6,828 nucleotides of DNA, taken from assembly GCF_021107415.1 (NCBI RefSeq), contig NZ_JAIOSW010000288.1:1-6828 (forward strand), in the 5' to 3' direction. Within the stretch, counting starts at the first letter, position 1; every line of letters starts with the position of its first letter. The position numbers and the translations under genes were made by a program. Shown here one piece after another: positions 3-6,828 of the stretch. The stretch comes from Desulfobacula sp. GTDB lineage: Bacteria; Desulfobacterota; Desulfobacteria; Desulfobacterales; Desulfobacteraceae. The notes beneath the pieces were generated by a model. The model made no database searches. It saw only the letters and a program-made list of their open reading frames with translations, and was not told the origin of the DNA.

Positions 3-266
3 TCAAATGAATACCGGCGATATCACCTGCATGATACCCACGTTCAAAAAGCCATAAAGAAGGCTGTCAGAAAATCAAAGCTGCTCAAAAGAGCCTCGGC
101 TCATACCTTTCGCCATAGTTTTGCAAGCCATCTGCTCCAGGCAAACTATGATATCAGGACTATTCAGGAGCTTTTAGGGCACAGTGATGTCAGGACAACG
201 ATGATTTATACTCATACCATTAAATCAAGAACACTTAAGGAGATAAAGAGTCCGCTGGATTTCTAA
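3..266 (+). CDS. Integron-type tyrosine recombinase, C-terminal part (5' end outside the window)
   Basis: The visible 87 residues are the catalytic C-terminus of a site-specific tyrosine recombinase. The active-site pattern is complete for this part: His34 and Arg37 of the HTFRH box, His60 of the LLGHSD box and the nucleophile Tyr69 in MIYTH (numbering from the first visible codon). The opening [18 protein letters not shown] and the ending KSPLDF are typical of integron integrases (IntI) and differ from XerC/XerD, so I assign it to that branch. The family recombines attC cassettes with an attI site. In usual integrons attI lies near the integrase 5' end, which is outside this window to the left. 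No attC-like site was recognised here. The N-terminal SAM-like domain and the IntI-specific insert cannot be assessed because they are missing. The gene ends with TAA. It could also be a solitary integrase without an array. Confidence 0.88.
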
Positions 267-454: not shown

Positions 455-637
455 TTACAATCTGTTCACAGGAACATTGGCCAGTTTCTCCTCAAGGTAT
501 TCGTCCATGAGATCTTTATACTTGTCCTCGGGATAATTAATTGTGCAGGACCTGCAGCAAAAATAGATTTTTGTTCAGGTCCGTTTAATATATAGTTTTC
601 CACCGCAGTTCAAACATCTTTCTTTTATATCTTTCAA
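455..637 (-). CDS. Dual-CXXC small selenoprotein (Sec21 encoded by in-frame TGA)
   Basis: Read through one TGA (plus-strand 575-577), this frame encodes 60 residues. The order is CLNC (8-11), a basic stretch IKRT, Sec21, then TKIYF, CCRSC (Cys27, 28, 31) and an acidic helical tail ending in NVPVNRL. Two CXXC pairs suggest a zinc-ribbon or thiol-redox mini-domain. I recall a Desulfobacterota family named dual CXXC motif small (seleno)protein, whose members carry Cys or Sec between the two pairs; this match is from memory. The start is TTG at 635-637, because AAAGGA lies 8 nt upstream and a stop lies five codons upstream in frame. A hairpin resembling a SECIS follows the TGA. The coding pattern is intact on both sides of the TGA, so a simple pseudogene is unlikely. 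No selenocysteine machinery gene is in the window. The cellular role is unknown. Standard gene calling would miss it or truncate it at codon 20. Confidence 0.8.
541..560 (-). promoter_or_regulatory. Bacterial SECIS-like hairpin downstream of the in-frame UGA
   Basis: On the minus-strand RNA, UUG, a bulged C and UGCA form the 5' arm. The loop is GGUCC, and UGCA followed by CAA closes the 3' arm, giving 7 base pairs and one bulge. In E. coli fdhF the known SECIS has the same design: a 3-bp lower stem, one bulged U, GCA/UGC and a GGUC loop. Here 22 nt lie between the UGA and the loop, compared with 18 in fdhF by my count. SelB is known to bind this loop and bulge to deliver Sec-tRNA. The bulged base is C rather than U, which is a difference to note. 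The hairpin codes for the FCCRSC part of the protein. Confidence 0.75.
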
Positions 638-645
638 GACTTTTA

Positions 646-651
646 TCCTTT
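646..651 (-). promoter_or_regulatory. Ribosome binding site fixing the TTG start of the selenoprotein gene
   Basis: AAAGGA on the minus strand sits 8 nt before the TTG codon at 635-637. No ATG or GTG is available in frame between the upstream TAA (five codons away) and the first CXXC motif, so this site decides the start. Confidence 0.6.
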
Positions 652-742: not shown

Positions 743-1225
743 ATGGATAGAAAAGAAGACAGATACAACCGGAATTATCCCATTTCCTGGGAGCAGCTCC
801 ACAGGGATTCAAAAGCCCTGTCATGGAGACTCCATGACATTGAAAAACCATGGAGAGGGATTGTTGCAGTTACGCGGGGAGGTCTTGTTCCTGCTGCAAT
901 TATTGCCCGGGAACTTGGGATATACTATATTGATACGGTCTGCATCTCCACCTATGACTGGAAAGAACAGGGGGAGCCGAAAATCCTGAAAAATATTGAT
1001 GATTCAGGTGAAGGACTTTTAATTATTGATGATCTTGTGGACACGGGCTCAACAGCCAGGATTGTCAGGAAAATGCTTCCAGATGCCTATTTCGCAACCG
1101 TATATGCCAAACCTGCTGGCAAACCTTTGGTGGATGCCTATGTGACGGAAGTCAGCCAGGATACCTGGATACTTTTTCCATGGGATTCGGAGTCCCAGTT
1201 TGTAGAACCTATTGCCGGAAAATAA
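743..1225 (+). CDS. gpt: Xanthine/guanine phosphoribosyltransferase (Gpt type)
   Basis: This 160-residue protein closely resembles E. coli Gpt (152 residues) along its whole length. Gpt transfers the phosphoribosyl group of PRPP to xanthine, guanine or hypoxanthine in purine salvage and is cytoplasmic or membrane-associated. Visible marks are the PRPP loop residues RGG (45-47) in VAVTRGGLVP, the family segment IDTVCISTYD (63-72), the PRPP-binding motif IIDDLVDTGST (94-104) and the C-terminal QDTWILFPWD block (139-148), the counterpart of the purine-binding end of E. coli Gpt. The start ATG has AGGAG at 726-730 with a 12-nt spacer, slightly long. The N-terminus is a few charged residues longer than in E. 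coli. The gene stands alone on its strand between the divergent selenoprotein gene and the convergent argG. I see no purine riboswitch upstream. Confidence 0.93.
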   Translation: MDRKEDRYNRNYPISWEQLHRDSKALSWRLHDIEKPWRGIVAVTRGGLVPAAIIARELGIYYIDTVCISTYDWKEQGEPKILKNIDDSGEGLLIIDDLVDTGSTARIVRKMLPDAYFATVYAKPAGKPLVDAYVTEVSQDTWILFPWDSESQFVEPIAGK

Positions 1226-5178: not shown

Positions 5179-6288
5179 ATGAATTTTGAAAAAGAGCAAT
5201 TACTGGAGTTGCTGGCGCAGATAGCGCCTAATCGTTATCTTCAGGCCGTGTTGATTATCCTCTTGTTTTTTGGCCTGGCAAAGATCATCGATGTGATCAT
5301 CACCCGCGTAATCAAAAAATGGATAGAAAAGACCAATCTCAAGTTAGATGACCAGGTTCTTGCTATTTTTCATAAGCCCGTCTTTCTCAGTATCATACTA
5401 TTCGGTCTTGCCCTGGCCACGGAAAGATTGGAGTTTAAAGAGACCATAAACTTCATAACCCTGGGCGGCCTGAAAACTGTGGCTATTTTTTTCTGGGCAG
5501 CGGCTGCAGCAAGATTTCTTAAGCTTTTACTCAACCTGGTGAGTCACGACGACAGTCGGTTTAAGTTGATACAGGACCGGACACTTCCCTTGTTCAGCAA
5601 TCTGTTGATTCTTCTGGTAACAGGATTGTCAATTTATATTATTTTTCTGGTATGGGCTATTGATCTGACAGCCTGGGTAGCTTCTGCCGGTATACTGGGT
5701 CTTGCCATCTCTTTTGCCGCAAAAGACACTTTGGCCAATTTGTTTTCTGGTGTATTTATCATGGCAGATGCTCCCTACAAAATAGGAGATTTCATCGTTC
5801 TTGATTCAGGGGAGCGGGGAGCGGTGACAAACATCGGTATTCGCAGCACACGTCTTTTGACCCGTGATGATGTGGAAATAACAGTGCCCAATTCCATCAT
5901 GGGAAATACCAAGATTACCAATGAAGCCGGCGGCAGGCATGAAAAATTCCGTATCCGTGTCAAGGTGGGAGTTGCCTATGGATCGGATATTGACAAGGTC
6001 CAAAGCGTATTGTTTGATGTGGCAACAAATTTTCCAAATGTCTGCAAAATTCCTAAACCGCGTGTGCGGTTTCGGGCCTTTGGAGACTCAAGCCTTGACC
6101 ATGAATTATTGTGCTGGGTCAATAAACCGGTATTGCGCGGTAAAGTATCGCACATGCTTAATACTGCTGTTTATAAACGATTTCTGGAAGAAGGCATTGA
6201 GATACCCTTTCCTCAGCGGGATGTGCATATTCAGTCTGCATCGGCAGACAATGCAGATATTGACTTATATGAAACTGATTGCAGATAA
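5179..6288 (+). CDS. MscS-family small-conductance mechanosensitive ion channel
   Basis: These inner-membrane channels open under membrane tension and release solutes during osmotic downshock. The 369-residue protein has an N-terminal helix (about 20-42), further hydrophobic helices at about 66-82, 93-119 and 138-161, and the pore-lining TM3 segment GILGLAISFAAKDTLANLF (171-189), rich in Gly and Ala as expected. The cytoplasmic MscS beta domain follows, with the characteristic YKIGDFIVL (200-208), GAVTNIGIRSTRLLT (214-228) and VPNS (236-239), and ends with the conserved EIPFPQRDVHI (341-351). It has more membrane helices than E. coli MscS (three), which is common in the family. AGGA 6 nt before ATG supports the start. 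Its last 20 nt overlap the next gene, suggesting cotranscription. Tandem hairpins lie in its upstream region. Confidence 0.93.
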   Translation: MNFEKEQLLELLAQIAPNRYLQAVLIILLFFGLAKIIDVIITRVIKKWIEKTNLKLDDQVLAIFHKPVFLSIILFGLALATERLEFKETINFITLGGLKTVAIFFWAAAAARFLKLLLNLVSHDDSRFKLIQDRTLPLFSNLLILLVTGLSIYIIFLVWAIDLTAWVASAGILGLAISFAAKDTLANLFSGVFIMADAPYKIGDFIVLDSGERGAVTNIGIRSTRLLTRDDVEITVPNSIMGNTKITNEAGGRHEKFRIRVKVGVAYGSDIDKVQSVLFDVATNFPNVCKIPKPRVRFRAFGDSSLDHELLCWVNKPVLRGKVSHMLNTAVYKRFLEEGIEIPFPQRDVHIQSASADNADIDLYETDCR

Positions 6289-6828
6289 TCTTAGAATTAC
6301 AAAAACAGCTATCCAGCATGCGCTTAAGGCTTCTGACCCCAAGCCCATACAGGAACTTGTGAAGCAGTGTGTGGAAAAAGGGGCATGGGCCATTGATGTG
6401 AATACCGGGCCTTTGGGTAAATTTCCTGAAAAGGGCATGGTATTTTTTATTGAGGCAGTACAGAGTGTGACAGATCTGCCGTTGCTCATTGATACTTCCA
6501 ATCCGGCTGCCATGAGAGCAGGGCTTGAGGCTGCAGACAACAAGGCGATCATTAACGGGTTTTCCCTTGAATCCCATAAGCTGGAGAAAATTTTACCCCT
6601 GGCAGAGGAGTATGATACCGATATCGTCGGGTTCCTTCTGTATCCTGACAGCCGGGTTCCAAAGGATGAGGCTGAGCGGTTTGAGATCGCCCTTGAGCTG
6701 CTTGAACAGGCTGAAGCGGCCGGGGTTTCAAAAGAACGGATCATTATTGACCCGGTTGTACCGCCTTTGGCCTGGGAAGACGGGATTGTTCAGGCAAGGG
6801 CTGTTTTGAATGTTATAAGGATGTTACC
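6269..6828 (+). CDS. Methyltetrahydrofolate:corrinoid methyltransferase-like protein (AcsE/DHPS-fold), 3' end outside the window
   Basis: The visible 186 residues match the pterin-binding TIM barrel of AcsE (MeTr), which passes the methyl group of methyltetrahydrofolate to the corrinoid iron-sulfur protein in the Wood-Ljungdahl pathway. Supporting marks are WAIDVNTGPLG (40-50), LLIDTSNPAA with Asp75 (72-81), AIINGFS (93-99), VGFLLYPDSRVPKD (120-133) and IIIDPVVPPLA (158-168), in the same order as in AcsE and dihydropteroate synthase. DHPS itself and the MetH pterin domain are alternatives, but the spacing suits AcsE better. I chose ATG at 6269, because family members begin near this point. 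An in-frame ATG at 6251 is possible, and neither has a clear ribosome binding site, so translation may be coupled to the overlapping channel gene. The C-terminal third is missing because the window ends. The pathway context (acsCD, cooS) is not visible. Confidence 0.85.
   Translation, partial: MKLIADNLRITKTAIQHALKASDPKPIQELVKQCVEKGAWAIDVNTGPLGKFPEKGMVFFIEAVQSVTDLPLLIDTSNPAAMRAGLEAADNKAIINGFSLESHKLEKILPLAEEYDTDIVGFLLYPDSRVPKDEAERFEIALELLEQAEAAGVSKERIIIDPVVPPLAWEDGIVQARAVLNVIRML

Follow-up and report, generated by a model that had tools for sequence, protein, structure and literature searches.

The minus-strand frame at positions 637-455 of the window, i.e. the whole stretch of 6,828 nucleotides analysed here, is, to judge from its sequence and those of its relatives, very probably a functional selenoprotein gene of the OS_HP3/NF041197 family in a Desulfobacula-like sulfate reducer. 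It is an additional selenocysteine (Sec)-containing member of an already known family; the family itself is not new. Re-reading of the strand recovered the frame described in an initial annotation, with 60 codons, a TTG start, a TAA stop and a TGA at codon 21 as its sole break; in translation it runs LKDIKERCLNCGGKLYIKRT-TGA-TKIYFCCRSCTINYPEDKYKDLMDEYLEEKLANVPVNRL-TAA. The AAAGGA noted ahead of the start is suitably spaced, at 8 nt from the TTG, and was also found upstream of the TTG in L001-L008. The TGA lies between two CXXC motifs, as had been described (residue 21, flanked by residues 8-11 and 28-31), and the codons of the second motif (545..556) overlap the interior of the SECIS hairpin. 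The features are as follows.

455..637, minus strand: very probable selenoprotein gene, NF041197 (OS_HP3) member, 60 codons plus TAA (translation; NCBIfam, 72.5 bits; codon-21 TGA shared by 18 relatives)
646..651, minus strand: AAAGGA, likely ribosome binding site, 8 nt ahead of the TTG start (sequence)
605..616, minus strand: first CXXC, residues 8-11, presumed zinc ligands (neither Cys varies across the 95 members aligned)
575..577, minus strand: in-frame TGA, codon 21, very probably read as selenocysteine (TGA 82, Cys 24 and defective 2 among 108 loci)
545..556, minus strand: second CXXC, residues 28-31, presumed zinc ligands (neither Cys varies across the 95 members aligned)
541..560, minus strand: SECIS hairpin, minimum-energy stem, nt 15-34 past the TGA; apical loop GGTCC at 548-552
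743..1225, plus strand: phosphoribosyltransferase gene (gpt-like), divergent (Pfam Pribosyltran, 2e-15)

With U written as C, the window protein scored 72.5 bits against the NCBIfam model NF041197, 'dual CXXC motif small (seleno)protein' (CxxC_Se_CxxC; cut-off 40, E 2.3e-20), and all 53 model positions were covered. Both CXXC motifs and the RxU motif of NF041197/OS_HP3 (RTU in the window) are shared, and no difference in kind was seen. The accessible part of a 2026 review lists a 'Dual CXXC motif small protein (hypothetical protein OS_HP3)' with the motif RxU under NF041197 and credits OS_HP3 to Zhang and Gladyshev 2007, from an Olavius algarvensis symbiont (PMC13188914); the accessible part of another source lists OS_HP3 without a domain (PMC9312934). 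As far as these two partial texts extend, the role is given as hypothetical and no function is reported (PMC13188914, PMC9312934). According to the part of the deep-Sep report (2025) at hand, that tool missed OS_HP3 in Desulfosarcina widdelii, and the same report describes a hypothetical protein DW (PMC12013277), which the available text of the review places under NF041197 with the motif GxU (PMC13188914). In a Desulfobacula-related genome, 34 putative selenoproteins were counted, according to the excerpt available (PMC8318568). The NF041197 model matched 252 of 389 genomes of the order sample (238 over the cut-off) and 112 of 395 genomes of the phylum sample (88 over the cut-off), with 0/14 controls in either case; among the order-sample matches listed, 12 had no internal stop and all others had one TGA each. 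The family is common by these counts, yet its role is still hypothetical in the accessible part of the review that dates its source to 2007 (PMC13188914).

The gene had been called an unannotated selenoprotein gene, which is correct for this contig and incorrect for the family, already modelled as NF041197 and listed as OS_HP3. It had also been claimed that no automatic caller would report the gene intact; callers do catch pieces of it, and JGI has forms in which residue 21 is W. For the window's own gene, the protein collection contains a piece of 37 residues (P0003). Of the 16 proteins retrieved with the profile, four (P0008, P0013, P0014 and P0016) had been given the NF041197 family name by NCBI, and the last three of these are 35-37-residue pieces from relatives.

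A scan of genome contigs yielded 18 related loci, with the titles Desulfobacula, Desulfotignum, Desulfobacteraceae, Desulfobacterales and, in one case, Deltaproteobacteria. The TGA at codon 21 was present in all 18 (L001-L018) and is therefore beyond chance. The frame past the TGA was intact in 17 of them, L007 being readable to residue 56, where its stretch ends; L018 showed the codon-21 TGA and a frameshift soon after it. Across 108 homologous loci, residue 21 was encoded by TGA in 82 and by a Cys codon in 24 (12 TGT, 12 TGC), and two loci (L018 and L077) were defective. Homologs with Cys or U aligned to residue 21, to which the initial annotation had looked for support, thus make up these 82 and 24 loci, and the opposite outcome, in which all homologs stop at the TGA or align a residue other than Cys or Sec, was not observed; the sole other residue, encoded by TGG, was seen in L077 (genome G133), where the frame is lost near C8, upstream of codon 21. 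L077 looks like a decayed Sec gene. It retains a TTGCAGGTCATGCAA-type stretch, and genome G133 has SelB and tRNA-Sec.

The 108 loci comprised the window with L001-L018 (19), L044, L046-L053 and L055-L114 from the order sample (69) and L155-L174 from the phylum sample (20), after removal of the duplicates L025-L043 and L045 (places of L055-L074) and L054 (place of L017); they were mostly drawn from the top of the score lists, which biases them towards good copies. L115-L134 were kept outside the 108. Eight of the 20 duplicate L155-L162; the remaining 12 all had Cys at the matching residue, so that the real Cys share of the phylum sample exceeds that in the 108. L135-L154, which represent GxU and other branches, were likewise kept outside. 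In an alignment of 95 members, from which near-copies and the two defective loci were excluded, only five columns were invariant: C8, C11, U/C21, C28 and C31. Residue 19 was R in 92 and K in nine of 106 loci. Residue 59 was R in 97 of 106 loci, with no aligned residue in eight; most members end in N/D-R-L/I, and some Cys forms end in IIYD.

The window protein is most likely a four-Cys zinc ribbon with Sec exposed at a hairpin turn, as suggested by a low-confidence model. AlphaFold2, run with 95 sequences, predicted strands at residues 14-19, 24-28 and 34-36 and a helix at residues 37-52 (mean pLDDT 66, pTM 0.42), and in this low-confidence model residue 21 lies off the knuckles, in the turn that joins the first two strands. 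A fold search of the PDB with the model gave nothing at E 0.001; the best Foldseek match was RNA polymerase II chain I (E 0.3), with RPB9-type ribbons among the nearest. Profile comparison with PDB sequences gave 2jrp (E 2.6e-5), HypA 3a43 (0.0016) and YfgJ 2jne (0.0036). Pfam Zn_ribbon_6 matched weakly in 38 of the 95 members, and the window protein itself had no Pfam match at E 0.01 in the zinc-ribbon check. Zinc ribbons such as 2jrp, YfgJ (2jne), HypA (3a43), RPB9/RPA12, the TopA zinc fingers and LysW share CXXC knuckles at similar spacing, but the matches are too weak to assign the window protein to any of them, and none of them is known to contain Sec. A YHS/TRASH metal domain was considered for its spacing and rejected, as TRASH_HVO_1752_C reached 10.6 bits against a Pfam cut-off of 27 and no YHS match was obtained at E up to 1.

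In the proposed structure, C8/C11 and C28/C31 would together hold one zinc in a zinc ribbon with the helix behind. Sec21 would sit at the beta-hairpin turn, away from the metal and two residues past the basic R19, and its exposed selenol might serve as a redox or nucleophilic group directed toward a partner. It is conceivable, if rather unlikely, that the gene does encode a selenoprotein but that its product handles metal, with Sec21 as a fifth ligand of the metal or in exchange with a ligand, and not as an exposed redox group. Such a role would fit the invariance of Sec/Cys21, which equals that of the four CXXC cysteines, and the seven of 82 Sec members that have no Cys at residue 27 or in the tail to resolve a selenenylsulfide; the low-confidence model, on the other hand, sets residue 21 in a turn distant from the knuckles, and 75 of the 82 do possess a spare Cys, either at residue 27 or in the tail. 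An exposed Sec on a zinc ribbon remains our preferred reading of the fold. The two spare positions were both occupied by Cys in only four Sec members and look interchangeable, one replacing the other, in counts that ignore kinship. A resolving Cys (C27 or tail) was rejected as a general rule, as the seven members with neither do not conform to it.

The stretches before and after the TGA are under equally strong purifying selection: among 21 close Sec sequences, pN/pS was 0.218 before and 0.200 after it, which bears out the earlier impression of coding-like sequence on either side. Codon choice agrees with a putative constraint from the hairpin. The codon for C28 was TGC in 81 of 82 Sec genes, that for C8 in 54/81 and that for C11 in 63/81, and Arg29 was encoded by AGG in 59 of 61 Sec genes.

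The hairpin was assessed by folding and covariation. The minimum-energy fold of the 45 nt past the TGA has 14 unpaired nt followed by an 8-bp stem with one bulge (-6.0 kcal/mol), and the loop is GUC with the last G-C pair closed and GGUCC with this pair open. Folding thus agrees with the hairpin proposed initially (beginning 14 nt past the TGA, single bulge, GGUCC loop), the loop being GGUCC in the open form. Against 1000 synonymous recodings, the window fold had a z of -2.0 over codons 25-35 and of -1.5 over all 45 nt. A search of Rfam with the window gave no family at E up to 1. The likeness to the SECIS of E. coli fdhF, which had been pointed out before, is real in that both hairpins have TGCAGGTC in common shortly past the UGA; the distance from TGA to GGTC is, however, 18 nt in fdhF and 22 nt in the window, and the lower stem differs. 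The fdhF SECIS string used for this comparison matched fdhF at 100% in three listed E. coli records, and matches to it occurred in 5368 of 5426 E. coli genomes.

Compensatory changes preserve the hairpin across the TGA genes; the Cys genes have no hairpin in common. After merging of identical stretches, 81 Sec and 24 Cys sequences were available for folding and covariation. RNAalifold gave a hairpin of six base pairs and a 5-nt loop (-6.7 kcal/mol) for the 81 Sec sequences, and a common hairpin was not found for the 24 Cys sequences. Folding was better than the mean of a gene's own synonymous recodings in 79 of 81 Sec sequences (mean z -1.34) and 14 of 24 Cys sequences (-0.36). The loop G, nt 24 past the TGA, was G in all 81 Sec sequences. 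Standard pairs filled 452 of 486 pair cells in the Sec genes, against 79-186 when the 3′ side was slid, and 107 of 144 in the Cys genes. Two outer, variable pairs exceeded all 2000 shuffles in the Sec genes, the shuffles being blind to kinship; in the Cys genes the observed values of the same two pairs were reached by 313 and 300 of 2000 shuffles. The four inner pairs of the six showed no covariation gain over shuffles in the Sec genes, because they are almost invariable. In bacterial Sec insertion, SelB with Sec-tRNA binds the loop of a hairpin located after the UGA. By this established mechanism, SelB carrying Sec-tRNA would bind the GGU hairpin loop and insert Sec at the UGA of the window gene.

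These data bear on two readings in which the gene would not encode a selenoprotein. That translation truly ends at the TGA, or that the TGA is a lesion, leaving a pseudogene or a 20-residue peptide plus a dead remnant, would be in line with the frameshift past the TGA in L018, with the frame loss and TGG in L077 and with the finding that annotators have just the 35-37-residue post-TGA piece for several relatives, but we consider it very improbable: codon 21 is TGA in 82 and a Cys codon in 24 of the 108 loci, purifying selection is equal on both sides, and a common hairpin is confined to the TGA genes. It is just as hard to credit that the TGA encodes tryptophan, as it does in code 4, or is passed by near-cognate readthrough. 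W does occur at residue 21 in three database proteins, P0002 and P0005 from JGI and P0004 from NCBI (P0004 and P0005 are known here as protein only), in addition to the TGG of L077. Yet the gene's own terminal stop is TGA in eight of the 18 close relatives (L002, L004, L006, L008-L011 and L013), so that TGA functions as a stop in those hosts when the hairpin is absent. Apart from the out-of-frame L077, the sole alternative to TGA in the DNA was Cys (24 loci); P0002 carries an extra W at its end, at the position of the TGA stop in the closely related L006, which is what a caller using a code with TGA as W would produce; and insertion of Trp needs no SECIS.

The machinery for Sec insertion, for which the selenoprotein reading calls, was found in nearly all of the relatives' host genomes tested. 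In the 18 hosts of the close relatives, which are draft MAGs, SelB was over the family cut-off in 16 (not in G001 and G014; controls 2/14) and tRNA-Sec in 15 (not in G010, G011 and G014; controls 5/14). In G014, the only host without both over the cut-off, the C-terminal half of SelB was matched at 49.5 bits. SelB was found in all of 23 further genomes and tRNA-Sec in 22 of them (controls 2/14 and 3/14), which brings the totals for all tested host genomes of relatives to 39/41 and 37/41 over the cut-off. Genomes with the Cys form had SelB in 11/11 and tRNA-Sec in 10/11 cases; the Cys form therefore does not signal that the Sec system has been lost. After merging, a tree of 105 rows (82 Sec, 23 Cys) required four Sec/Cys changes against a shuffled mean of 21.1. 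At least three of these are forced by well-supported branches, in a tree from a short alignment with many forks open. A ten-row Cys clade (support 100/99) is nested in a supported 39-row clade (95/87) that contains the window. Eight of the ten Cys rows share the window's gpt-like divergent neighbour, which indicates orthologs at one chromosomal place.

In the window, a clear operon including the selenoprotein gene was not found. The gpt-like gene is divergent, and while common to the window's group it probably does not belong to the selenoprotein unit. Elsewhere in the window, the C-terminal end of a phage-type integrase, cut by the window edge, lies at 3-266 (plus strand; Pfam Phage_integrase 3.8e-19), and an MscS-type channel gene at 5179-6288 (Pfam) overlaps with its 3′ end the start of a frame at 6269-6828 (plus strand), by eye pterin-binding methyltransferase-like, that runs off the window. 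In 88 loci, of which many are short stretches, recurrent neighbours were argJ-like in 31 (divergent), truA-like in 25 (downstream), gpt-like in 24 (divergent), argG-like in 20 and an AEC-type transporter in 14, the names being given by eye except for the phosphoribosyltransferase (Pfam). A function deduced from context was rejected, as the neighbours are housekeeping genes that vary by group. pyrE was seen by eye directly ahead of the Cys members L161, L164 and L166. Since branches adjoin gpt, truA, pyrE, topA and dnaX-recR in different groups (names mostly by eye), it might be speculated that, in sulfate reducers and related bacteria, a core process involving nucleic acids or nucleotides uses the zinc ribbon with its exposed Sec as an adaptor that responds to redox state, with the spare Cys (27 or tail) as resolving thiol, a proposal that we put forward as a long shot.

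The LysW C-terminal end is of the EDWGE type, and argJ belongs to the acetyl route of arginine synthesis, which needs no carrier. The least probable reading of all, a LysW-like amino-group carrier for arginine synthesis, could draw on the argJ-like and argG-like genes (near 31/88 and 20/88 loci, names by eye) and on the weak zinc-ribbon matches to LysW, but the best NCBIfam LysW score was 13.2 bits (L148; P0007 10.8) against a cut-off of 75, the window protein had no LysW match, the members mostly end in N/D-R-L/I, the neighbours vary between groups, and neither the argJ route nor the EDWGE end fits.

Residue 21 was Sec or Cys in every locus read save the decayed L077, and the Cys clade lies within a Sec clade, mostly at the same place beside gpt and in genomes keeping SelB. 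Because residue 21 is confined to Sec or Cys, the Cys clade is nested and the CXXC pairs are invariant in 95 members, the family offers a clean Sec/Cys ortholog set for asking what Sec contributes to a zinc ribbon.

In the related GxU branch (L135-L144, L146, L147, L149, L153 and L154) a TGA was found at the matching codon within CXXC...U...CXXC; its places fell below the NF041197 cut-off in the genome search, and L135, L136, L137 and L141 were above it when U was read as C. These relatives share CXXC...U...CXXC with the window protein, but without the NRL/DRI end, and judged solely by its motif the branch may be the published hypothetical protein DW. An alifold over all 15 GxU loci did not find a common structure; eight of them (L135, L137-L140 and L142-L144) have a different hairpin just past the TGA, of the forms GGTGAG...CTCACC, GGTAAG...CTTACC or a near form, in which compensatory changes can be seen by eye. 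Among the neighbours, also recognised by eye, topA- and dprA-like genes lie ahead of the GxU members L135, L139 and L143, and dnaX-ybaB-recR-dprA follow L137, L140, L142 and L144. In L145, L148 and L150, CxCG replaces the first CXXC and the TGA lies in RRUSG or RKUSG, together with a TGCAGG-type hairpin; these three loci scored 39.5-42.7 bits against NF041197.
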